64,000 nt of DNA from the NCBI RefSeq assembly GCF_037969725.1, contig NZ_CP150203.1, positions 3,798,001 through 3,862,000 on the forward strand, given 5' to 3'. The DNA is from Paenibacillus sp. FSL W8-0426. GTDB lineage: Bacteria > Bacillota > Bacilli > Paenibacillales > Paenibacillaceae. The notes under the pieces were generated by a model, which did not search any database, was not told the DNA's origin, and worked only from the letters and a program-made list of their open reading frames with translations. Positions 16,972-60,530 of this stretch are shown here, one piece after another. Numbering within the stretch: the stretch's first letter is position 1; every line of letters begins with the position of its first letter. Position numbers and translations under genes: made by a program.

Positions 16972-19110
16972 TTATCGTTCTTTGGGGAGTAAATTCAGCT
17001 CATGAGCACGTGCAACCGCTTCAGTGCGCCTCCGAACTTGAAGTTTCTCGAAAATTCTGCGATTATGCCCTTTTACCGTGTCCACAGCCAAGGAGAGTTT
17101 TGCACCGATGTCCCGGTTGGAAAGTCCCTTGGCAACAAGCGCTAGCACATCGAGTTCACGCTGGCTGAGCGGCTCAACCAAATTGCAATTCTTCGTTGAT
17201 TGAAGGATCGTCCTGACACGCTCCAGGCCAGCTTGTGCTTCGCGAAGAGCCGGAAGCGGAAGATCGCCGGCCAGCTTGATAGCCTCTTCGTAGCATTCTC
17301 CCGCCAGGTTGGGTCCATTGTCTGCTTCATGTAATTGACCCAGTCCGATAAGAGACATAATGGCCATCAGTTTATGTCCCATCACGTGACTGTAAGAAAT
17401 AACTTCATTGTAGGCTTTTTGAGCTCCCGCATAGTCTCCCCGCCGTTGGCTTGAGATGCCCAGCATCCATGCCGCCGCCGTCCGAACAGGAAGATTATCC
17501 TGGCGGAGATACGCTAACGCGAGCCTGGATTGGTTAATAACTTGATCGATCTCATAGGCTGCACTCCTCAAAACATTCTTGCCCGGAGCAATAAGCTCGA
17601 TGAGGTCATCGCTTTTGTCGTCATGTTCCGTCATTTGCATGAACTTTTCAGCTGTCTGTAATTTTTGATGGGTCCCGTTAGGATTCACGGCCATCATTAA
17701 CGAACCCACTGCAGCCCGGGTTGCCGCAATCAGCCCGATCAAGTCTCTTACGCGAACGTCCTGTCGGGCGCCTTCGAGCGCTGCCTCTGCCGCTTGCAGC
17801 TTGGGTTCAACGTGCGTCGGCTTACCTGTGATTAGCAAAGCTGAACCGTACATCACCCACAACGCCGGTCTGGCGTCCAATTCTGCAGCAGGCAGCGACT
17901 CCAACCATTTCAGCGAAATGCCTGCTGCCCCGCGAAGATGCAAAGGCATCCCATTGCCTTCCAAAAGAAGCGCGGAGCGTTCAACATCAGCTGTTTCAAC
18001 GGCATGGTGAAATGCTTCGATTTCAAGGCCGTGATTTTCATACCAAACGCTTGCCCGTTGGTGTAGTTCTGCAACATTGGAACCGTTGAGATGATCCTCT
18101 AACCGTCTTTGCAATGACTCGGCGAACAAGTGATGGTAGCGATACCATCTTCGTTCATGGTCCAAAGGAATAACGAACAGGTTTTGGCGCTCAAGATCCA
18201 GCAACCGTTGCTTCCCTGATATTGCCGGATCGAGCAGAATAGCATCGCAAAGAGAACCGCACAGGCGGTCGAGAATCGAGGTGCGTAACAAAAAGGTCTG
18301 AACAGCCTCCGGTTGCCGCTCCAGAACCTCTTCTACCAAATAATCCAGCACAAAATGATGGCTGCCAACAATAGACTGAATAAACCGGTCTGTACCACGA
18401 TCGCCTTGAATAGAAAGGGCGGCCAACTGCAAACCGACAATCCATCCTTCCGTTCGTGATGCCAGCTCATCGATGATATTCTCAGGTAGGTTTAGTCGCA
18501 TGACTTCGTTAAGAAACCCTTCAACTTCGGGACGCGTAAATTTCAGATCTGCTTCACGCAGCTCTGTTAACTGGTCTTGAGCTCGTAACCGGGCCAATGG
18601 AATAAACGGATCCTCGCGTGTGATCATGACCAGATGGATATGCGAAGGCAGATGATCGAGGAGAAAGGAAATCGCCTCGTCTATCGGCTTCGATTTCGCT
18701 GCGTGATAATCATCAAGGACAAGAATGAAAGGTGATATGACAGCAGCTTCCTTTAGGAGCACCTCTATAATGGACTCCATCGGAGGCAGTGCTGGAGATT
18801 GAAGCATTTCAAGCACGCCTTCCCCGAGCTTCTCGGCAATCGTTTGCAGCGATGAAATAACACAGGTTAAAAACCGCGTAAGCTCATTATCTCCTTCCTC
18901 AAGTGATAGCCATGCAACAAGCCGCCCGCATTGGGGAATCCATTCGCCAACCAATGTGGTTTTGCCATAGCCAGCGGGCGCGGAGATCAAGGTCAATTTA
19001 CGATGTAATTCACATTGAAGCCTTTCTATCAAGCGTTGACGGAGAACTGTATTTTGCCGAAAAGGCGGTATATTGAATTTAGTGGAAAGGTTACGCTTAG
19101 ACATAAGCAT
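16972..19110 (-). CDS. MalT/LuxR-type ATP-dependent transcriptional regulator (LAL type)
   Basis: 712 residues. N-terminal STAND-type ATPase with Walker A APAGYGKTTL (about residue 43) and Walker B FILVLDDYH; a helical TPR-like middle; C-terminal LuxR helix-turn-helix LSQRELDVLALVAKGLSN with recognition helix DTVKGHNRRIFEKL. Shorter than MalT (about 900) because the repeat region is reduced. Such proteins bind an inducer and ATP, then activate nearby genes. Neighbours are two polytopic membrane proteins: DUF4386 downstream and the divergent gene at 19421. Start ATG 19110 or 19104. Confidence 0.85.
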   Translation of the reverse strand: MLMSKRNLSTKFNIPPFRQNTVLRQRLIERLQCELHRKLTLISAPAGYGKTTLVGEWIPQCGRLVAWLSLEEGDNELTRFLTCVISSLQTIAEKLGEGVLEMLQSPALPPMESIIEVLLKEAAVISPFILVLDDYHAAKSKPIDEAISFLLDHLPSHIHLVMITREDPFIPLARLRAQDQLTELREADLKFTRPEVEGFLNEVMRLNLPENIIDELASRTEGWIVGLQLAALSIQGDRGTDRFIQSIVGSHHFVLDYLVEEVLERQPEAVQTFLLRTSILDRLCGSLCDAILLDPAISGKQRLLDLERQNLFVIPLDHERRWYRYHHLFAESLQRRLEDHLNGSNVAELHQRASVWYENHGLEIEAFHHAVETADVERSALLLEGNGMPLHLRGAAGISLKWLESLPAAELDARPALWVMYGSALLITGKPTHVEPKLQAAEAALEGARQDVRVRDLIGLIAATRAAVGSLMMAVNPNGTHQKLQTAEKFMQMTEHDDKSDDLIELIAPGKNVLRSAAYEIDQVINQSRLALAYLRQDNLPVRTAAAWMLGISSQRRGDYAGAQKAYNEVISYSHVMGHKLMAIMSLIGLGQLHEADNGPNLAGECYEEAIKLAGDLPLPALREAQAGLERVRTILQSTKNCNLVEPLSQRELDVLALVAKGLSNRDIGAKLSLAVDTVKGHNRRIFEKLQVRRRTEAVARAHELNLLPKER

Positions 19111-19297: not shown

Positions 19298-19353
19298 TGT
19301 GACATTTTGTTTACAAGTTGATCAAACTTTGGCGACAAGTCCCTTCTATATTG
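19298..19353 (+). promoter_or_regulatory. Conserved 56-bp promoter-like block A
   Basis: Contains TGTGACA, TTGTTTACA, the run TTGATCAAACTTTGGCGACA and TATATTG. By hand alignment 45 of 56 positions match a block at 25947-26002 (minus strand) with no gaps. The four conserved cores are fully identical and the mismatches fall between them. It lies 67 bp before the TTG start of the membrane acyltransferase-like gene. Likely a shared promoter/operator; regulator unknown. The rest of the gap 19111-19297 shows nothing. Confidence 0.7.
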
Positions 19354-19420: not shown

Positions 19421-20626
19421 TTGTCATTAAACTTTTTGTCACCGAATGAGATAAGGCATCAAGGCGTGGAAGTTGACCCTGGTGCCCCCAATTCTCAGCA
19501 AAATAACGCGGATTTGTCGCATAAGCGAGGTAACCCACGTGGGTCCGGACGACTTATGGCTCTAGATGCTGTAAGGGGTCTAGCCGTGATCGGCATGTTT
19601 TTACAGCACTTTGCTTTGAATGAAAGAAATGCTATCGTTGCAGGCAATACGACGCTATTATTTGTTCTTTGCGGAGGTATTTCGTATTCGCTTATGGCTC
19701 AGCGGATGAAGGAGCGCGGAACGGATGCAACCGTTTTTCGGTCAAGAATGCTAGCGCGGGCTGTATTTGTGGATGTGATCGGCTACCTCCTAATCCTGCT
19801 GAATACCCCATACGGCATCATCCTGCCTGCTTACGCTGTCATGTTCGTGCTTGGATTAGTGCTCATTCACCGCTCAACTCGTGTATTGGTTTACACTGCT
19901 TTATGTTTACTGGTGTTGGCACCGCCACTTATGCTTCTGGGGTTGAGTTACTTCAATGGAGCAGATCTGCTTCAAGATATTGCCGGGGGGCCGATGTCTG
20001 CTCTCGCACTTTCTCCTGCTTTTGTAGCAGGAATGGCGATTGCGCGATTCAATCTAACCAATAAGCGAATTGCAGTCTCGCTTGCCATAAGCGGTTTCGT
20101 CATGCTTGTCATTGGTAAGATGCTGGAAGCTTATGTCCTTCCTGATCTAAGAACATCTTTTGAATCGTGGATCGTTCATGTTCAAGGTACGAATTTCGTT
20201 CCAGTTGACGAATATGCCATTTGGCCTTTTAATGTAAATCCACCGCTCTGGCACATGCTTCTCCAGACAGCACCGCATACCGCGTCAACGTTCCAGACGT
20301 TAATCGGGCTCGGAATTGCATTTCTGGCCATAGGACTTGCATTCCTGATCCCGAGTAAAATAAGCGTCATTTTAAGCCCTTTTGCAGCAGTTGGTCGTGT
20401 CGCCCTTACGATGTACGCCGCTCAGTTCATCGTTGTTTGGGTGTTGACCCTCCTGGGAATCGATTATGGTTTAGGTGAATTTCCGCTTGGTGATCTAATC
20501 GTAGTTGTAATCACACTGGTGGTGGGCTCTATTATTGCTCTTAAGCCTACTGGTCCACTCGAGTTAATGATGCGACGATTCGACCAAAGATTCAGTTCCA
20601 TCGGTCCAGCACCAGCATCCAAATGA
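19421..20626 (+). CDS. Polytopic DUF418/heparan-acetyltransferase-like membrane protein
   Basis: 401 residues, with a ~45-residue polar N-terminus, then about ten membrane helices. The first helix, RLMALDAVRGLAVIGMFLQH, has the LDxxRGxAxxGM...H signature of YeiB/DUF418 and HGSNAT-like acyltransferases, where the His takes part in acyl transfer across the membrane. The start is TTG, 8 nt after AGGAGG; an ATG between them is out of frame and opens only a four-codon ORF. The upstream block 19298-19353 is shared with the OatA-like gene at 25903, suggesting co-regulated envelope acylation. Substrate unknown. Confidence 0.72.
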   Translation: MSLNFLSPNEIRHQGVEVDPGAPNSQQNNADLSHKRGNPRGSGRLMALDAVRGLAVIGMFLQHFALNERNAIVAGNTTLLFVLCGGISYSLMAQRMKERGTDATVFRSRMLARAVFVDVIGYLLILLNTPYGIILPAYAVMFVLGLVLIHRSTRVLVYTALCLLVLAPPLMLLGLSYFNGADLLQDIAGGPMSALALSPAFVAGMAIARFNLTNKRIAVSLAISGFVMLVIGKMLEAYVLPDLRTSFESWIVHVQGTNFVPVDEYAIWPFNVNPPLWHMLLQTAPHTASTFQTLIGLGIAFLAIGLAFLIPSKISVILSPFAAVGRVALTMYAAQFIVVWVLTLLGIDYGLGEFPLGDLIVVVITLVVGSIIALKPTGPLELMMRRFDQRFSSIGPAPASK

Positions 20627-22138: not shown

Positions 22139-22285
22139 TCATGTCCCTCCCTCAGCGGCTGCCGATTCACGGATTTCGTCTCCTGCCCAAGATTCAACAC
22201 GGTCCAGATCATGAAGCTCTGCCGTTGTTCCCTGTACCTGAGTCTCTGCCGAAACCGCATTGAAGATGGATTTTCTCTTTTTCAT
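22139..22285 (-). CDS. 48-aa ORF translationally coupled to the LCP gene
   Basis: The ATG (22283-22285) overlaps the LCP stop codon in an ATGA, and GGGGAGG lies 7 nt upstream, inside the LCP gene. The peptide starts MKKRKSIFNAVSAETQVQGT and continues as a polar, acidic 28-residue tail ending EGGT. No membrane segment, signal sequence or cysteine. The overlap and ribosome site are what a real last gene of an operon would show; the sequence was not recognised. Alternatives: a remnant of a larger gene, or a modified-peptide precursor (no maturation enzyme is adjacent). Confidence 0.55.
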   Translation of the reverse strand: MKKRKSIFNAVSAETQVQGTTAELHDLDRVESWAGDEIRESAAAEGGT

Positions 22286-23307
22286 TCTGCAACCTCCCCA
22301 CTCTCCCGTTCCTGATCAAGCGGTGAATTACCGGTTTCTATAGTCTCGAACTCATCGGCTTCAAGTATGTTCCGAACGTAATCCTTCAGTTCATTGTCGT
22401 TTGTTACGCCAAGTACAGCTGCTCTTCCGACATAGGTTTCTTTAAGCAGCTTCATCGGCGGGATTTGCTCACTTGCCTCCATTTTGCTCTTGTAACCAAC
22501 CGATGCCAGCTGCCACATATCATTTACCGACAAATTCGTGTCGATATACGGACTGACTTCTTGGAGGATCGATGGAAGCTTCATGATGGATGTTGTGCTT
22601 TTCATTTTTTCGACGATGGCATTGGCAAAATCGCGCTGCCGCTTCGTTCGGGAATAATCCGATAGGGCATCATGGCGGAAACGAACATATTGAAGTGCCG
22701 TCTTCCCGTCAAGATGCTGCTCCCCTTCCTTCAGGTTGATATCGTACTCATGATGATCAGCTTTACTTTCATAAGTCATATCCTTCTCCACATAGAAATC
22801 GACGCCACCGACTGCATCCACGAGTTTGATAAAGCCTTGGAAGTCTGTGTATACGTAAAATTGGACCGGTATACCAAGCAGCTCGCTTACGGCGCGCATT
22901 GCCGTTTTAGGTCCATGGGTGACCGCTGTGTTGATGCGGTTCTTCCCATGCTCCGGAATATCAGTATAGGTATCCCGAAGAATGGAAAACACATGAATAC
23001 GTTTTTTAACAGGGTCGAGGGAAACAACCATCATGCTGTCAGATCTCGGAATCTCGTTTTTCTTGTTGCCGCGTGCATCTACGCCCATCAGCAAAATATT
23101 GACAGGTTCCTCGCCAGCCCATTTTGGAGGTTCTGCGACGTTCTCCTCGCTCGCCATCACTTGGGCAAAGGGAGAATCCTCCGACGTTTTTTTCAACCCC
23201 TCTAACCCTCTGTATATGGATAAGGAATAATAAAGCCCGAAAGCGACAACTGCTGCTAAAATCATGATGCTTATTACCGCTGTAAATTTTTTCTTTTTGA
23301 ACGCCAT
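22282..23307 (-). CDS. LytR-CpsA-Psr (LCP) family ligase
   Basis: About 341 residues from ATG 23307 (AAAGGAG upstream; the in-frame GTG at 23316 overlaps that site). An N-terminal membrane anchor (about 8-30) precedes the LCP domain: VNILLMGVDAR, then RSDSMMVVSLDP, SILRDTYTDIP, KINTA-like KNRINTAVTHG, and VDAVGGVDFYV. LCP enzymes move teichoic acid or other glycopolymers from undecaprenyl carriers to peptidoglycan on the outer membrane face. Part of the operon acyltransferase - SGNH protein - LCP - 48-aa ORF, so a role in attaching an acylated wall polymer is likely. Confidence 0.9.
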   Translation of the reverse strand: MAFKKKKFTAVISIMILAAVVAFGLYYSLSIYRGLEGLKKTSEDSPFAQVMASEENVAEPPKWAGEEPVNILLMGVDARGNKKNEIPRSDSMMVVSLDPVKKRIHVFSILRDTYTDIPEHGKNRINTAVTHGPKTAMRAVSELLGIPVQFYVYTDFQGFIKLVDAVGGVDFYVEKDMTYESKADHHEYDINLKEGEQHLDGKTALQYVRFRHDALSDYSRTKRQRDFANAIVEKMKSTTSIMKLPSILQEVSPYIDTNLSVNDMWQLASVGYKSKMEASEQIPPMKLLKETYVGRAAVLGVTNDNELKDYVRNILEADEFETIETGNSPLDQERESGEVAE

Positions 23308-23347
23308 GGCGGACACTCCTTTTCTTGGTACTCAATAGACAAAACAC

Positions 23348-24037
23348 TCAATGTTCCTGTAATCCTTGAACGAGAAGCGAAGCATAGAATCTGCTGCCAT
23401 CCGGCTTCAGATGAACGCCGTCTTTGTAGAAGAACTCATCTTTGCCTTCGCTCGCTGCGTACCAATCCACCACTCTCGCATTATCAAATTCATTTACAAC
23501 ATCCTTAATGTTGGCGTTCACTGTATCCTGCCATCTTTTTGGAACCCGGGTTGTCACGACCAAAACCTGTTTGGCTTCCGATAATGATGTAAGCAAATTG
23601 CGCAGTTGATCTTTGGAAAAGGGGCCGTTCGTGCCAAGCTCTATAATGATGCGGTCTCCCAACTTCCCCTCAGCACTTAATTGTTGAATTAATTTTCCGG
23701 CCTGGGACATCTGTCTGCCGACCTTTCCATCAACGGTGACTTTCGGAAGCTTCTCTTTCAGGTAAGGCTCAACGCCAACCATGACGGAGTCTCCAATGAC
23801 GGTAACTCCTTGCCCATCGATGGACGAAGATTCAGCTATGTCTGCCTTTAGGGAGCTGATGTCTTCCTTTACTTCAGATGGGGTCAGGCTTGAACTATTC
23901 TCGAATGTTTCAAAAGATCGGCGATCCGCTTTTTCTTGTTCACCTTTGGAAGAAGCCTGGTTATGAAAAGCAAGATACCCAAGGATGGAGATGAGGAGGA
24001 CAAGCCCCCAGTACATCCACGTTTTTCGTTTTTTCAT
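23348..24037 (-). CDS. Membrane-anchored SGNH-domain protein (stand-alone OatA C-terminal type)
   Basis: 229 residues from ATG 24037 (GGTGG 8 nt upstream). One membrane anchor (WMYWGLVLLISILGYLAF), a ~55-residue polar linker, then an SGNH/GDSL-like domain: GDS in VTVIGDSVMVG, IIIELGTNGPF with the conserved Asn, and DGVHLKPDG with catalytic Asp/His. The domain closely matches the C-terminal domain of the next gene upstream (for example DGKVGRQM, LGDxIIIELG, VTTRVP and DWYAASE in both), showing tandem duplication. Probably transfers or removes O-acyl groups outside the membrane. 36 bp from the OatA-like gene. Confidence 0.85.
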   Translation of the reverse strand: MKKRKTWMYWGLVLLISILGYLAFHNQASSKGEQEKADRRSFETFENSSSLTPSEVKEDISSLKADIAESSSIDGQGVTVIGDSVMVGVEPYLKEKLPKVTVDGKVGRQMSQAGKLIQQLSAEGKLGDRIIIELGTNGPFSKDQLRNLLTSLSEAKQVLVVTTRVPKRWQDTVNANIKDVVNEFDNARVVDWYAASEGKDEFFYKDGVHLKPDGSRFYASLLVQGLQEH

Positions 24038-24073
24038 CGTATATTCCACCTTTCTTATCCATAAAAATGGATG

Positions 24074-25903
24074 CTACGCGTTTTGCTTAAGATGTTGGAC
24101 GAGTAAAGAAGCGTAATATTGAGCTCCTTCGGAAGTGAGATGAATCCCATCAGAAGTAAACAGTCCACTTTTTTCCTCACTGGCTGCATACCAATCGATA
24201 ATGTTTACATTGGAATAATCACGTGCAACTTCTTTCAAAGCATCATTCACAGGATCCTGCCAAGCTCTGGGCACCCGAGTAGTTACCAGATAAAGCTGCT
24301 TGTCTTGCAGCGTATCTATTAGCTTTCTTAGTTTGCTTTGATTAAAAATCCCGTTGCTCCCCAGTTCAATAATGATCTGGTCCCCCAGTTCTCCTTCTGC
24401 TTGCAGCTGATCCACAACCTCTTGAGCATGCGTCATCTGCCTGCCGACCTTTCCGTCCACCACAATGCCCGGAAGCATCTCTTTCATGTAGGAATCCACA
24501 TCCAGTGTGATCGAATCCCCGATTAGTGTGATGCCTTTTCCTGAATAAGACGAGCCGGCAGCAGCATCATGACTTGTTTGGGGCATGTCATCAGTGATCG
24601 GCTGATTGTCATTGATCGATGGCTGTTGCTGGTTAGGGATCTCCTGTTCATCCTTTTGCAGTGTATCGGGAATGCTCACGGCTTGGGCGAATTCAGGCTG
24701 ATCCTTCGAACCGCTGGTTATCCAGGATAGGGCGATAAAGAACGCAATCAACGTCAGACTTATGCCGACCATGGGTTTAAAACGTTGATGACGCCGGATA
24801 TCACGCCATTTCGCGTGAAAATATCCCTTGCGAATCGGTTCTTCGATGAACGTGTACGAAAATACGGACAGCAATAGGATCAGGCCGAGACGCAGCATCA
24901 ATGGCGCCAATCCAAGCCCTTCACTACTCGCCCCGTCGGGTTGCATCAAAATAATCACGGGATAATGCCATATGTAGAGGCTGTAAGAACGCTTGCCAAG
25001 CCAGGTCAGTGACCGGCATCCCAAAACGCGGCCTAGACGACTAGCCGGATGCGCCAAGACAGAGATCAATACTGCCGTAACCAGAGAGAGAAGGAGAAAT
25101 CCATACTGATATAGCGAATCTTCATACTCATTCGTGCGAAGAATACACATGATCAGGATGAACAGTGCACATGCACCAGTGACATCAAGCGATCTCCGTG
25201 CCCCGGGTGAAATCTCCTTCCCCAACTTCCAGCTTGGCCATGCAACCGCTAAGGCCGCACCGATCAGTATGGCAAACGCTCTGGTGTCTGTTCCGTAATA
25301 CACTCTGCTTGGGTCTGTTCCCGGCACATACATTAGAGCCATGGCCATCGCAGATACAAGAGCCAGCACCAACATGCATGAAAGCAACTTTCCGCGCCGA
25401 GGCGCAAACCTTAGAAAGATGAGCAGTACGATCGGCCAAACGACGTAAAACTGTTCCTCAATGGAAAGAGACCAGAGATGTCCAATGGGCGAAGCTGGGC
25501 CGAAGCTTTCAAAATACGAAACTTCGTGAAAGATGAGATACCAGTTATTCACATAGAAAACAGAAGAGATAAAGTCTCCTTGCAGTAACAGAAGTCTCGC
25601 GGGATCTGCAGCCAACAACCACAATGCAACCAGCAAGAGCATACTTAACATCGCAGGCAGCAATCTGCGAAACCTTCGCAGCCAAAAGTTCCAAAGCGAT
25701 ACATGATTCACTTTCCACTCCATTAGAAGCTGATCCGTAATCAGGTAACCGGACAGGACGAAAAATACGCCTACTCCCAGTAATCCTCCCTGGGCCCACT
25801 TCAAGTCCAAATGGTAAGCGATGACAGCCAGTACGGAAATGGCTCGTAAACCATCCATTCCAGGCATATAACGCTTCATCGGTTGATTCAATTTCCCACG
25901 CAT
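24074..25903 (-). CDS. OatA-like membrane O-acyltransferase with SGNH domain
   Basis: 609 residues. Residues 10-380 are an Acyl_transf_3 module of 10-11 helices (PGMDGLRAISVLAVIAYHL with the key His, FFVLSGYLITD, WSLSIEEQFYVVWP). A ~75-residue Q/D-rich linker follows, then an SGNH domain (about 460-609) with GITLIGDSI, IIIELGSNG and SDGIHL. This is the layout of OatA, which O-acetylates MurNAc and gives lysozyme resistance; related proteins acetylate teichoic acids or polysaccharides. First gene of the operon with the single SGNH protein and LCP ligase. Its promoter region holds block B (25947-26002). Confidence 0.88.
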   Translation of the reverse strand: MRGKLNQPMKRYMPGMDGLRAISVLAVIAYHLDLKWAQGGLLGVGVFFVLSGYLITDQLLMEWKVNHVSLWNFWLRRFRRLLPAMLSMLLLVALWLLAADPARLLLLQGDFISSVFYVNNWYLIFHEVSYFESFGPASPIGHLWSLSIEEQFYVVWPIVLLIFLRFAPRRGKLLSCMLVLALVSAMAMALMYVPGTDPSRVYYGTDTRAFAILIGAALAVAWPSWKLGKEISPGARRSLDVTGACALFILIMCILRTNEYEDSLYQYGFLLLSLVTAVLISVLAHPASRLGRVLGCRSLTWLGKRSYSLYIWHYPVIILMQPDGASSEGLGLAPLMLRLGLILLLSVFSYTFIEEPIRKGYFHAKWRDIRRHQRFKPMVGISLTLIAFFIALSWITSGSKDQPEFAQAVSIPDTLQKDEQEIPNQQQPSINDNQPITDDMPQTSHDAAAGSSYSGKGITLIGDSITLDVDSYMKEMLPGIVVDGKVGRQMTHAQEVVDQLQAEGELGDQIIIELGSNGIFNQSKLRKLIDTLQDKQLYLVTTRVPRAWQDPVNDALKEVARDYSNVNIIDWYAASEEKSGLFTSDGIHLTSEGAQYYASLLVQHLKQNA

Positions 25904-25946: not shown

Positions 25947-26002
25947 CAATATAAACAGCGGATGTCGCCAAAGTTTGATCAAGATGTAAACAAGTTGTCA
26001 CA
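25947..26002 (-). promoter_or_regulatory. Conserved 56-bp promoter-like block B
   Basis: The minus-strand counterpart of block A at 19298-19353: TGTGACA, TTGTTTACA, TTGATCAAACTTTGGCGACA and TATATTG at the same spacing. It ends 44 bp before the OatA-like ATG. The core TTGATCAA is a perfect palindrome. Candidate binding site for a common regulator or an unusual sigma factor. Confidence 0.7.
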
Positions 26003-26079: not shown

Positions 26080-27225
26080 CTATTCAAATTCGATGATAAA
26101 TGCCGGCTCCTCTGTGGAATCATCATTGGGTATGCTTTTCGGATTCACAAAGGTTTTAGGCCCTTGTATGAACAAACTTGTATTGTCCAGACTCCATTTC
26201 ATATTCAACGGCAATATACCACGGTAAACGGGCTCGTTATAAAGCACATTTCTGCCTTGCATTTTCCCCACATAAACAGCATCTTCATCTTGCAACGTAT
26301 ATGCAATAAATTTTTTGTCCGGTGAAAATTCAAATGTAGATACTCTCTCCAGAATAACGGAAAGCTCACCGTTCCGCTGATCGTATTCGTACAACGTATC
26401 ATCTCTACCCAAAAAAGCAAACTGATCGTCGCCAATCCAGATCATTGGTTTATCAGCAATTTGACGCTTGTACTTTGTCTCAAAATGCCCATCGATCAAT
26501 TTGCCAAGCGCGATGGTGGGCCTGCCCGATTGACGGGTATCAAGCAGCTTAATCAAGGCACTGCGGCCATCATTGGATACCTGGACATCAAGAAGTGTAT
26601 CATCCGAATTGAACTCGTTTAATGTGTAGGATTTGGATGCCTTGGTCTTCGTATCATACACCCGCAGACTGTTCTTTTCGCTTTCAGCAGCGTCCAGAAC
26701 CAGATAACCTATCATTTGGCTGTTGTCAGACCAGGACATATTTTGCAGGTAACTCTGACCTTTGGGGTTAAATGTGTCGACCTCTTTTTCTTTTCCGTCA
26801 CTGGCAGAAATGAAAACAGTCGTGATTGTCGTTTTGTTTATACGTACATCGGCGACATGCCTACCGTCCGGCGACAGTGACATTAGAGAGTGGTCCACAT
26901 CGTTCTGCATAATGTCTTTACTTTGTTCAAAAGGGAGAGTCAATTGTTTCAACATGAAACGCTCAGGGAAACCTGTACTTTTGAATGAACCCAATAGCGT
27001 GTCGATTGTTGACCAGCCCAACCAGTACCCTTTATCCACTTTTTCTTCCGGAAGGCGGTAAATTTTTTTGACCTGAACGGGACTTAAGTCTTGATGTGTT
27101 TGTTCGTTTGCCTCGTTCCCTGATATGATGATGGTTTCGTTTGGAAAGCGGGCGCCACAACCTGTTAACAGAAGGACAAGCAGAACAATCACGCTTAAAC
27201 CAAACCCACCATATTTCTTAGCCAT
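26080..27225 (-). CDS. Lipoprotein with beta-propeller-like repeats
   Basis: 381 residues. The signal peptide ends with lipobox LLLTGC (Cys about residue 23). The mature part has TolB/WD-like repeats: LSPDGRHVADVRI, SWSDNSQMIGYLVL, VSNDGRSALIKL and FSPDKKFIAYTL. No enzyme motif. It overlaps the kinase gene by 8 nt, so it is translated with the two-component system; a sensor accessory on the outer membrane face is the best guess. The ligand is unknown. Confidence 0.75.
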   Translation of the reverse strand: MAKKYGGFGLSVIVLLVLLLTGCGARFPNETIIISGNEANEQTHQDLSPVQVKKIYRLPEEKVDKGYWLGWSTIDTLLGSFKSTGFPERFMLKQLTLPFEQSKDIMQNDVDHSLMSLSPDGRHVADVRINKTTITTVFISASDGKEKEVDTFNPKGQSYLQNMSWSDNSQMIGYLVLDAAESEKNSLRVYDTKTKASKSYTLNEFNSDDTLLDVQVSNDGRSALIKLLDTRQSGRPTIALGKLIDGHFETKYKRQIADKPMIWIGDDQFAFLGRDDTLYEYDQRNGELSVILERVSTFEFSPDKKFIAYTLQDEDAVYVGKMQGRNVLYNEPVYRGILPLNMKWSLDNTSLFIQGPKTFVNPKSIPNDDSTEEPAFIIEFE

Positions 27226-28681
27226 GATTGTTCCCCTCCTCTACGGATACATGGTTAAACTCTACCGTAACTGCAGTATGGTAATCTTGACTGACGACAG
27301 AAATGGTACCCTCCAGTTCATCGACAATGGATTTGACGATACTTAATCCGAGCCCCACGCTGCCCTCTTCTGGATCTTTGGAATGAGCGAAGTAGAAAGG
27401 TTCGAACAGCTTGGAAAGCTGCTCCGCATCAATGGGATCACTTGGATTGTCAATGATAAAACGGACTTTCCCGTCCGTACGAAGCCCTTTTACCGTTATC
27501 TCGGAGAAGTCCAAACTGTATTTAATAGCATTATCCAGCAGGTTAATAAAGAGTTGCCGAATTCGTTCCTCCTGGGCGAGCATGTATAATTCGGTCTCCA
27601 TGTCTACAGATATGCTTTTTTTGTAGCGTTGTGCACGTATGGACATGGATTCGCATACATCTCCTAGAACGGCTCCGACTTCAATGCGGTCGAGTTCATG
27701 GTTGGTTGCATGACGACGCGAGACTTCAAGCAGCTTGAGCACCATCTTATGAAGACGTTTGCTCTCTTCGATGATGTGGTTCATGCCTTTTTCAAAAAAG
27801 GTGCGATCCCTCTCTCCATTCGCCTTGATCAATTCTGCATAGCCCAATATGGAAGTTAAAGGTGTTTTGAGTTCATGGGTAACATTATCAAAGAAACGCT
27901 TTTCCTGCTCATGAAGATCCTTGAGTTGATCCCGATCTTTTCGGATAATGTTCATTTGCAGGCCGATCTGATCAATCATGTCATTAAAATTTTCGGCAAG
28001 CCGTCCGATCTCATCCTTTCGTTTGAACCGGATGCGAACGTCCAGATTGCCATTCTTCACTTCGGACGAGGCACGGGCCAGTTTCCCAAGTGGAAGAGTA
28101 ATGTGTCTTGACAGAATGAAAGAAAATAAAAAAGTAACTGCAAAAATAGCAAGTGTGATATAGAGCGTAGTATCCAGAATTCGACTGCTTTGCTGATACA
28201 GCTGGCTAAAGTCCTTGTAGAAACGTAGAATCCCTACTTTTGATCCATCGATCACGACGGGGTAAGAGAACAGAACCGTTGTTTTGTCATCGTCATAATT
28301 GATGTTATACGCAGTTTTTCCATCGATCGCTTCTTGCAGATCCGTTCTCTGCGGCTGTGAAAATAAAGACTTGTCCGAGGCAAATAACATCTCTCCGTCA
28401 AGGGTATATACGCCGACACTATTTCCAGTGGCATGATTCAAATTAATGCCGAGTTCCTCAGCCATTTCCCCAAAATATAGCTCGTTACTCGAAAAATGGT
28501 TGATCAGAAAGGTTTGACGAACATAAACATTGCTATTATTTTTGAGTCCAACGAGTTCGGTTGTGATCAGATTTTGGTTGCTTGTATGAATGATCTCCTT
28601 CACCGTTTGGCTCAATACTAGAAATGAAAAGGAGAAAATCAACAGGAATCCGAGAAGAAATTTGATGCTGATTTTACGCAT
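27218..28681 (-). CDS. Sensor histidine kinase (ResE/PhoR type)
   Basis: 487 residues from ATG 28681 (AGGTG 6 nt upstream); a GTG at 28690 is the other option. Two membrane segments (about 8-25 and 165-190) enclose a ~140-residue external sensor. HAMP (SRHITLPLGKLARASSEV) follows, then HisKA with His in NVTHELKTPLTSILGY and ATPase boxes NLLDNAIKYS and VGLGLSIVKS. Lies between its regulator and a lipoprotein that probably feeds it signals. Close to the wall-acylation operon, which it may control. Confidence 0.88.
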   Translation of the reverse strand: MRKISIKFLLGFLLIFSFSFLVLSQTVKEIIHTSNQNLITTELVGLKNNSNVYVRQTFLINHFSSNELYFGEMAEELGINLNHATGNSVGVYTLDGEMLFASDKSLFSQPQRTDLQEAIDGKTAYNINYDDDKTTVLFSYPVVIDGSKVGILRFYKDFSQLYQQSSRILDTTLYITLAIFAVTFLFSFILSRHITLPLGKLARASSEVKNGNLDVRIRFKRKDEIGRLAENFNDMIDQIGLQMNIIRKDRDQLKDLHEQEKRFFDNVTHELKTPLTSILGYAELIKANGERDRTFFEKGMNHIIEESKRLHKMVLKLLEVSRRHATNHELDRIEVGAVLGDVCESMSIRAQRYKKSISVDMETELYMLAQEERIRQLFINLLDNAIKYSLDFSEITVKGLRTDGKVRFIIDNPSDPIDAEQLSKLFEPFYFAHSKDPEEGSVGLGLSIVKSIVDELEGTISVVSQDYHTAVTVEFNHVSVEEGNNHG

Positions 28682-28686
28682 GTTAA

Positions 28687-29379
28687 TCACCTGCTTTTGA
28701 ACTTGTATCCGATTCCGAATACCGTTGCAATATGATCTGTTGCATCCAGCTTTTTGCGAAGTCGCTGGATATGCGTATCTACCGTCCGAGTATCACCTGC
28801 AAAATGATAGCCCCAGACAACATCAAGCAATTCAGATCTGCTAAATGTTCTCCCTGGATTCCTCACCAGCGTCATAAGCAAATCATATTCCTTTGGCGTT
28901 AATTCAACCGGTTGACCGTTTTTGTTTACAAGCCGTTCTTCGGACCGAATCTCAATATGATCAATACGGATGATATCCGGTTGCGAATCGTTCTGTTGCC
29001 TGTGATTGGATTGCTCCAAACGGCGAAGTATAGTTCTAATCCGGGCAATGACTTCGCGGAGGTCAAATGGCTTGGTGATATAATCATCTGCGCCGAACTC
29101 TAGTCCGAGCACTTTATCCGTTATATCGGATTTGGCCGTTATCATGAAGATGGGGATGTTATACTCGGCGGTAACCTTTTTGCATATATCCAGCCCGCTC
29201 TGGTCTGGAAGCATCCAGTCCAGGAGCAGCAGATCAGGCTGAAAGGACTGAATTCCGCTTATTCCAGCGGCTCCATTTGATGCGATAAGTGTCTGGTAGC
29301 CCTCCAATGAGAGTCCGTACGAGAGCAGGTCCGCAATGGGGGCATCATCTTCAATGATTAGGATTTTCGCATTCTTCAT
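28687..29379 (-). CDS. OmpR-family response regulator
   Basis: 230 residues. Receiver domain with IIEDDAP, phospho-acceptor Asp in LLLLDWMLPDQSG and Lys in YITKPFD. The winged-helix domain ends TVDTHIQRLRKKL...VFGIGYKF. Start ATG with GGAGATTATA upstream. First gene of the RR-kinase-lipoprotein operon. An inverted repeat, TTAACGAG...CTCGTTAA, lies 61 bp upstream and may be an autoregulatory site. Confidence 0.9.
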   Translation of the reverse strand: MKNAKILIIEDDAPIADLLSYGLSLEGYQTLIASNGAAGISGIQSFQPDLLLLDWMLPDQSGLDICKKVTAEYNIPIFMITAKSDITDKVLGLEFGADDYITKPFDLREVIARIRTILRRLEQSNHRQQNDSQPDIIRIDHIEIRSEERLVNKNGQPVELTPKEYDLLMTLVRNPGRTFSRSELLDVVWGYHFAGDTRTVDTHIQRLRKKLDATDHIATVFGIGYKFKSR

Positions 29380-30289: not shown

Positions 30290-30317
30290 AGTCCTATTAT
30301 ACACCAAGCTTCTCTTT

Positions 30318-55130: not shown

Positions 55131-55275
55131 ACCTGGTCACCAATACGTTCAGCCAGTCAACAGGACTTGAAACATGTCTTTTGACTGGCTTTTATCTGGT
55201 TTGCTGCACCCTTACGTGAAATGAAATAGTTGTCGCACAGGGTTATGACCATCGGGCAGCTCTTTTTTTATCTTT

Positions 55276-55508
55276 ACTATATAGGTTGAACCAATGATTT
55301 TTACACAGAGACACTACGGGGTCAGAACCATCTTCCGATCGCTGTTATCCCTAGATTTCTTTGATCCCCTTTTTCAAGGGGAAAATCCGGTGATCAGCCT
55401 ATGCTTCCGAAGCAGCTTTCTTACAGAAAGCGTTTAGACCGCTTCGCTTCTCCAGATTCTTTCTGCCCTCTTCGTTATCGTATAAATTTCCGGTTCAATC
55501 TATATAGT
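55276..55508 (+). repeat. Inverted-repeat element, copy 3 (full length)
   Basis: 233 bp, nearly identical to copy 1. Its ends are ACTATATAGGTTGAACC and GGTTCAATCTATATAGT (16 of 17 match as inverted repeats). It ends only 4 bp from the fbp stop codon, so it has become the 3' flank (and perhaps terminator) of fbp. Confidence 0.8.
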
Positions 55509-59933: not shown

Positions 59934-60530
59934 TTGGACGAACCGATTCAACAAATTGTCAGTGACGTTCTGAAAGGGGAGAAAGACAAGTATGCATTGA
60001 TCGTCATGCGTTGCGAAAAATTCATCTTCAATTACTGCTACCACATGCTCGGGGATTATGGAGAAGCAGAGGATTGCAGTCAAGAGGTGTTCTTGAAGGC
60101 ATACCGCAGCTTGCACAAATACGATCCAGACAGACCCTATGAGGCATGGTTGTACCGGATTGCCTTTAACCATTGCATTGACTTGCTGCGCAAACGCAAA
60201 ATCACGCGATTTCTGCCCTTTTTGTACAAAAGTGACCGGGACAACAACCAGGTCGATCAAGCTATTGATCACAAATATTACAATCCGTCCGTGCTGCGTG
60301 CGCTGGCCATGTTGTCCGCCGAGGAACGAAGCTTGCTGATTCTGCGCTGCGTCGAGGAAAAGAGCTATAACGAAATTAGCCCTATTCTGAATCAAAACGC
60401 GACCTATTTACGAAAGAAATACGAGCGGGCCGCCGCCAAATTCAGAACATACTACGTCAGTACAGAGGAGGAAAGAAAAAATGAGCATCGACCCCGGCCA
60501 AGACCTGAAACCACTATTTCAAAGAGTTGA
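59934..60530 (+). CDS. ECF-type RNA polymerase sigma factor
   Basis: 198 residues. Start TTG 59934 after AAGGAGGGG. Region 2 (RCEKFIFNYCYHMLGDYGEAEDCSQEVFLKAYRSL, with the core-binding and -10 recognition helices) and region 4 (LSAEERSLLILRCVEEKSYNEI) are clear. The last 50 nt overlap the next gene. In ECF systems the co-transcribed membrane protein is the anti-sigma factor. Target promoters unknown. Confidence 0.9.
   Translation: MDEPIQQIVSDVLKGEKDKYALIVMRCEKFIFNYCYHMLGDYGEAEDCSQEVFLKAYRSLHKYDPDRPYEAWLYRIAFNHCIDLLRKRKITRFLPFLYKSDRDNNQVDQAIDHKYYNPSVLRALAMLSAEERSLLILRCVEEKSYNEISPILNQNATYLRKKYERAAAKFRTYYVSTEEERKNEHRPRPRPETTISKS

Follow-up and report, generated by a model that had tools for sequence, protein, structure and literature searches.

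The window (the whole stretch of DNA analysed, 64,000 nt of a Paenibacillus genome referred to below as G000) encodes a three-protein module on the minus strand. Its genes specify a response regulator of the OmpR/PhoB family (28687..29379, 230 aa), a membrane histidine kinase of HAMP-HisKA-HATPase organisation (27218..28690, 490 aa; 4-nt overlap with the regulator gene) and a putative lipoprotein with a predicted beta-propeller fold, which we propose to be an accessory sensor (26080..27225, 381 aa). The module sits just upstream of a 56-bp block (block B, 25947-26002, minus strand), which lies between the lipoprotein gene and an operon running from 25903 down to 22282 on the same strand. The operon begins with an AT3 acyltransferase carrying a C-terminal SGNH/GDSL-like part (24074..25903, 609 aa; PF01757, E 4.7e-29; PF13472 below cut-off), continues with a separate SGNH/GDSL-like protein (23348..24049, 233 aa, below the Pfam cut-off) and ends with a LytR-CpsA-Psr (LCP) glycopolymer transferase (22282..23316, 344 aa). 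The second of these proteins shares 45.7% identity over 199 aa with the C-terminal region of the AT3 protein encoded in G010, a genome of the same species. A similar block (block A, 19298-19353, plus strand) precedes the gene for a 401-aa multi-pass membrane protein of the DUF418 (YeiB) type (19421..20626, plus strand), which has an LDAVRG (DxxR) motif and a TTG start after AGGAGG. Divergent from block A is a gene for a MalT-like LuxR-type protein (16972-19110).

The description of both downstream genes as acyltransferase-type, made in an earlier sequence-only reading of this DNA, stands for this genome: the AT3 protein matches PF01757, and the DUF418-type protein reaches 22.6 bits against PF04235, just below the cut-off of 23.6, with its L025 orthologue above it at 28.6. 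PMC12423673 assigns both AT3 and DUF418 to the transmembrane acyltransferase (TmAT) superfamily. The locus resembles the AT3-SGNH/TmAT proteins treated there in its AT3 and DUF418 family matches and differs in having an LCP glycopolymer transferase in the operon as well.

When the window was compared with itself in ungapped 56-mers, the two blocks, on opposite strands, were identical at 45/56 positions, as had been reported, and all four cores previously named as fully conserved are indeed the same in both. The pair is the best inverted match in the window, the runner-up (42/56) being a near-self match at 30309/30315, and on either side of the blocks identity drops to background. Elsewhere in the window, near-identical direct repeats matching at 47 to 55 of 56 positions occur within and between ~0.85-2.04 kb (847-2039) and 55.27-55.49 kb (55266-55492).

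Searched with a 31-bp core pattern (<=3 mismatches), the window gave two matches and 100 shuffles gave none. Moreover, a 38-bp pattern (34 specified bases, <=3 mismatches) found two sites in the whole 6,909,549-bp genome and none with the reversed control; the strict block thus stands before no other gene in this genome, an outcome that goes against the refuting condition, set in the sequence-only reading, of a block upstream of unrelated genes. Using a weight matrix built from 52 unique sites, the blocks score 73.6 and 74.1 and the next-best window position -11.1. Mean identity among 11 orthologous AT3 promoters is 0.85 within the block vs 0.37 upstream and 0.47 downstream, and for 7 DUF418 promoters the values are 0.85, 0.27 and 0.31. 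The block DNA is a phylogenetic footprint.

When the block is written in lines of 11 bases it resolves into TGTGACA, GTTTACA, GATCAAA and GGCGACA, each with a four-base spacer, such that ACA, ACA, AAA and ACA recur every 11 bp. Array A (19298..19341, plus strand) therefore consists of the four 11-bp direct repeats TGTGACATTTT-GTTTACAAGTT-GATCAAACTTT-GGCGACAAGTC and array B (25959..26002, minus strand) of TGTGACAACTT-GTTTACATCTT-GATCAAACTTT-GGCGACATCCG; the regulator at 28687-29379 is the proposed binder of both. The consensus is an ordered set of four repeats of TTGnnnACAnn, and the matrix correlates with itself at a shift of 11 (0.232; <=0.079 at shifts 3-10 and 12-19). The sequence-only reading had drawn attention to a palindrome, TTGATCAA, in the third core. 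This overlaps repeat three and is replaced in relatives by CTGATCAA, GTCATCAA or AGGTGAAG; we rejected it as a recognition unit, the conserved feature being the 11-bp direct repeat.

Each array is followed by a -10 element, TATATT, placed 9 nt past the last ACA. That of array A (19347..19352, plus strand) lies 68 nt from the start codon at 19421 and that of array B (25948..25953, minus strand) 44 nt from the start codon of 24074-25903, both distances being the same in G010. A plain sigma-A promoter was looked for in both blocks as a TTGACA-like -35 at 16-18 nt; at 17 nt ahead of TATATT both blocks read AAACTT, and therefore neither has a usable -35, in agreement with the previous remark that the spacing does not suit a normal sigma-A promoter. 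Across the genus, TATATT or TATAGT occurs exactly 9 nt on at 15 of 18 sites located without a -10 in the search pattern, and the other three carry a weak element (TAATAT twice, TACTGT once). The best TATAAT match falls at 9 nt in 66/70 array sites, although most loci behind this figure were selected with the -10 in the pattern.

Regulators of the OmpR/PhoB family bind head to tail on direct repeats. Three features of the promoters they activate are present here: direct repeats at an 11-bp period, a -10 at a fixed short distance with no -35 (the missing -35 being read in the two window blocks) and a linked regulator, which has receiver and Trans_reg_C domains. At the phoA promoter of E. coli, the sites for PhoB overlap the -35 (PMC3348028), and PMC4832192 describes for M. 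tuberculosis PhoP a 7-bp motif with a strict 4-bp spacer, giving 11 bp, with three or four motifs bound more tightly. By analogy, the array geometry is that of the M. tuberculosis PhoP and E. coli PhoB sites. The likeness to M. tuberculosis PhoP lies in the 11-bp period arising from direct repeats, whereas motif, kinase and target genes differ.

The solved relatives of the regulator include M. tuberculosis PhoP. Its orthologues in the genus show 72-100% identity, the next-best protein being at 59%, and 16 of 17 aligned orthologues retain the recognition-helix segment RTVDxHIQRLRKKL, as would be predicted for a conserved operator. A matrix scan found no array upstream of the regulator gene itself in the window. 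In the lipoprotein, Cys23 is invariant in 29/29 aligned sequences. The structural model is a beta-propeller (mean pLDDT 83.3), and its Foldseek matches are WD40-type and TolB propellers with modest TM-scores, mostly about 0.4-0.56. The lipoprotein has diverged more (25-70% identity to the window protein) than the kinase (46-86%), which suggests that it may be the sensing end of the system, although this role is a guess. Accessory proteins that tune a kinase pathway are described for QseE-QseG in E. coli and for GraX, a cofactor of GraSR. The third protein here differs in being a predicted beta-propeller lipoprotein, which may act on its kinase.

Within the genus, the array (<=3 mismatches) was found in 9/75 genomes and the regulator orthologue also in 9/75, with both present in eight. 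The ninth regulator genome, G073, has a divergent array (7 mismatches) directly behind the module, where it precedes solute-binding lipoproteins and permease-like proteins (the latter read from sequence) rather than acyltransferase genes. Across the family, the array with its -10 was found in 38/394 genomes from 8 of 19 genera (reversed control 0), and the regulator orthologue (E<=1e-90) in 87/394. The regulator is present in 36/38 genomes with the block vs 51/356 without it (Fisher p 1.3e-24, phylogeny ignored), and the strict block in 2 of 307 genomes lacking the regulator. These data support the earlier suggestion of a dedicated regulator, and by linkage and co-occurrence the OmpR-like protein at 28687 is the best-supported candidate binder among those proposed. 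Linkage and shared ancestry account for part of this co-occurrence.

Two genomes in which the regulator orthologue was not found, G008 (L019 8297-8336) and G262 (L157 7498-7549), each have one intact-looking array. No plausible gene of at least 100 aa lies behind the array of G008, and that of G262 stands before a full-length DUF418 gene; some blocks may therefore be remnants, or a different protein may recognise them. A GTDB-wide pattern scan, reported as 86 stretches, was dominated by chance matches. Among its 80 listed loci (L051-L130), 14 have the full array with a -10 at +9 (accepted as TATATT, TATAGT or, in L073, which is cut by the locus end, TATAT), and all 14 are from Paenibacillus. 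At two of the listed loci, L075 and L089, no match to any module gene was found in the 8 kb covered. We also considered a plasmid origin and rejected it, a 201-bp promoter query having no match in the plasmid collection.

To describe the linkage of array and module we used 53 regulator loci in 52 genomes, comprising 33 of the 36 genomes with both features and 19 of the 51 with the regulator only; the 53rd locus is a second copy in G359, and the both-positive genomes outside the 33 are G000 (the window itself), G110 and G171. The kinase gene lies directly behind the regulator gene in 52/53 loci. The exception is G024, where the regulator (L028, G024:C1:5016927-5017604) is 3.7 Mb, in contig coordinates, from the kinase gene, the lipoprotein gene and the array (L023 3997-6729), and therefore regulator and operator stay together in a genome without physical linkage. 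Of the 51 loci at which the lipoprotein gene was delimited, 46 have an array scoring >25 no more than 900 nt behind it, against a maximum matrix score of -6.7 in 600 kb of simulated sequence. Since 32 of the 51 come from genomes chosen for the block, the telling part is the 19 chosen for the regulator alone, outside matrix training, of which 14 have a recognisable array behind the module. At the remaining five (L173, L177, L181, L182 and L183) none was found behind the lipoprotein gene; L182 and L183 have one before a gene that lies upstream of the regulator, and in the genome of L181 (G145) a site with one mismatch was found ~1.6 kb ahead of the regulator gene. At L189, where the stricter cut did not delimit the lipoprotein gene, the array scores 29.0.

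Conversely, seven loci (L139, L141, L143, L144, L153, L161 and L163) have an array with no module gene in the stretch, L163 showing a distant 31% regulator match only. Therefore, the link between array and module is not mere adjacency, and the array also works, or at least survives, when unlinked. Linkage within a locus is not independent evidence; the weight rests on the unlinked and exchanged targets, the untrained loci and the scarcity of the pattern, with two copies in the window's genome.

Taken together, we put at roughly 0.86 the probability that the block serves as operator and core promoter for the adjacent dedicated two-component system, which would activate through the four repeats. 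The kinase (27218-28690), probably under the influence of the beta-propeller lipoprotein (26080-27225), would sense a condition of the cell envelope and would phosphorylate the response regulator (28687-29379). The phosphorylated regulator would then bind head to tail, with up to four subunits on the four 11-bp repeats. As the last repeat lies 9 nt upstream of the sigma-A TATATT, we propose that the regulator, once bound, substitutes for the absent -35 in recruiting RNA polymerase, so that the AT3-SGNH-LCP operon and the DUF418 gene would be switched on together. By analogy with the PhoB and PhoP systems, we infer that the phosphorylated regulator activates at sigma-A promoters devoid of a -35.

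Alternatively, the array could be a repressor site at which the regulator keeps its targets off until a signal arrives. An array abutting the -10 could equally well block polymerase, and the sequence does not decide between activation and repression. However, the lack of a usable -35 together with the 9 nt to the -10 is the geometry of PhoB-type activation, in which the binding sites overlap the -35, as at the phoA promoter (PMC3348028), and we regard repression as unlikely.

It is also quite unlikely that the array is a Pho box bound by housekeeping PhoP or by another OmpR-family regulator such as WalR, with the adjacent system a bystander. In favour of this, sites before PstS-like genes (PBP_like_2: L192, L197 and L199) agree with the array in their 11-bp register and in the 9 nt before the -10, as does the site before an ABC ATPase gene at L195, whose product we take to be PstB-like, and the recognition helix of the regulator is of the common PhoB type. 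These PstS/PstB-like sites surface only as 2-3-mismatch matches of a generalised pattern. However, sites near-identical to the PstS-type site of G000 occur in G001, G002 and G006, which have neither the strict block nor the regulator orthologue. A paralogous OmpR-family regulator (53-59% identity) is found in 42/75 genus genomes (E<=1e-60), 36 of them without the block, and is not listed in 4/10 block genomes; the paralogue therefore does not track the block. PhoP and WalR are widely held regulators, and cross-binding by either would not predict that the block is nearly restricted to genomes with the linked module. We therefore rejected membership of the strict block in the Pho regulon, given its presence in 2/307 regulator-less genomes and the PstS/PstB-like genes, among the 20 downstream proteins scanned, following weak matches only.

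The repeat of a Pho box is TTAACA, whereas that of the array is TTGnnnACA in four tightly conserved units, which precede envelope or transport genes instead of phosphate genes and are nearly confined to genomes with the linked system (36/38). Shared with the boxes of E. coli PhoB and Bacillus-type PhoP are the direct repeats, an OmpR/PhoB-family regulator and a position in the -35 zone upstream of the -10 (PMC3348028), and Pho-box-like sites with the same 11-bp/9-nt layout stand before pst-type genes here. As a separate observation, the sites at L192 2367 (G000:C1:490866), L195, L197 and L199 show a Pho-box-like architecture in other letters within the same genomes.

The sequence-only reading had also named the MalT-like protein and an alternative sigma factor as possible readers of the block. 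The proteins considered here, the MalT-like one (16972-19110) and an ECF sigma factor (59934-60530), are both encoded in the window and the MalT-like gene is divergent from block A, yet we consider either very improbable. The MalT-like orthologue (E<=1e-150) occurs in 2/75 genus genomes, vs the block in 9/75 plus G073. The ECF factor (E<=1e-50) occurs in 12/75, seven at >=75% identity, and coincides with the block in G000, G010 and G022 only, the G022 match having 53% identity and an internal stop. Furthermore, ECF-type promoter motifs differ from the layout of the block, which consists of 11-bp direct repeats and a TATATT -10. Both candidates were discarded on distribution. Finally, that the block is a mobile or dispersed repeat which came to lie before two genes by chance, as its two copies on opposite strands might suggest, can hardly be credited, given two genome copies only, no homology outside the 56 bp and the same promoters in other species, a result that also disposes of the repeat element raised earlier as a possible refutation.

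With a generalised pattern (20 specified bases, <=3 mismatches) a search of 20 genomes was noisy, giving 79 matches vs 13 for the reversed control. In G000 it added only two matches, with 3 mismatches each, before a PstS-like gene and an O-methyltransferase gene, and therefore no third member of the regulon was found in this genome. The remaining annotated weak matches precede genes for a copper-amine-oxidase-N-type protein (L194) and an ABC permease (L201).

Lastly, we examined the genes directly behind the arrays in relatives, scanning 20 representative downstream proteins with Pfam, of which seven (from L192-L201) lie behind weak matches of the generalised pattern. The arrays precede AT3-SGNH-LCP operons, DUF418 proteins and solute-binding proteins with permease-like neighbours. 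They also precede Amidase_3 fused to polysaccharide deacetylase, Amidase_3 alone behind weaker arrays (L164, 2 mismatches), a polysaccharide deacetylase (L155), a PBP transpeptidase (L025) and M14 peptidases (L171, and L156 with SLH domains); the protein downstream at L139 matched no Pfam family. An array stands before the regulator's own gene at L138 (1 mismatch) and, weakly, with 3 mismatches, at L152, L187 and L191. The targets thus have mostly envelope functions, the solute-binding/ABC genes being the exception; the system acts chiefly in remodelling of the envelope, and its targets have been swapped from lineage to lineage. The earlier label, envelope acylation, fits the acyltransferase targets of this genome and is too narrow beyond it, because in relatives the array precedes solute-binding/ABC, amidase/deacetylase, PBP, M14 peptidase and regulator genes.

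With somewhat better than even confidence, we suggest that a three-protein module of the Paenibacillaceae carries the rigid four-repeat operator as a fixed downstream output port, into which lineages would plug different effectors (AT3-SGNH-LCP wall modification, polysaccharide deacetylase, amidase-deacetylase, M14-SLH peptidase or solute-binding/ABC genes). Further copies of the port would control unlinked genes (DUF418, PBP, more solute-binding proteins and sometimes the regulator itself). Searches of an open-access collection, which leaves out most subscription papers, listed no entry describing the system. An apparently undescribed envelope-related two-component system thereby gains a precise operator and a short, testable regulon, and AT3 and DUF418 acyltransferases would be linked to one signal. 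Moreover, an operator that is retained while its targets are exchanged offers a clean natural case of regulatory rewiring.

G359 carries two copies of the module (L165 and L189), with regulator identities of 80% and 68%, each with its own array type. At L170 5795-6717 (G022:C2), a partial copy of the lipoprotein gene (253/381 aa aligned, 64%) adjoins an array of opposite orientation and looks like the remains of a second module.
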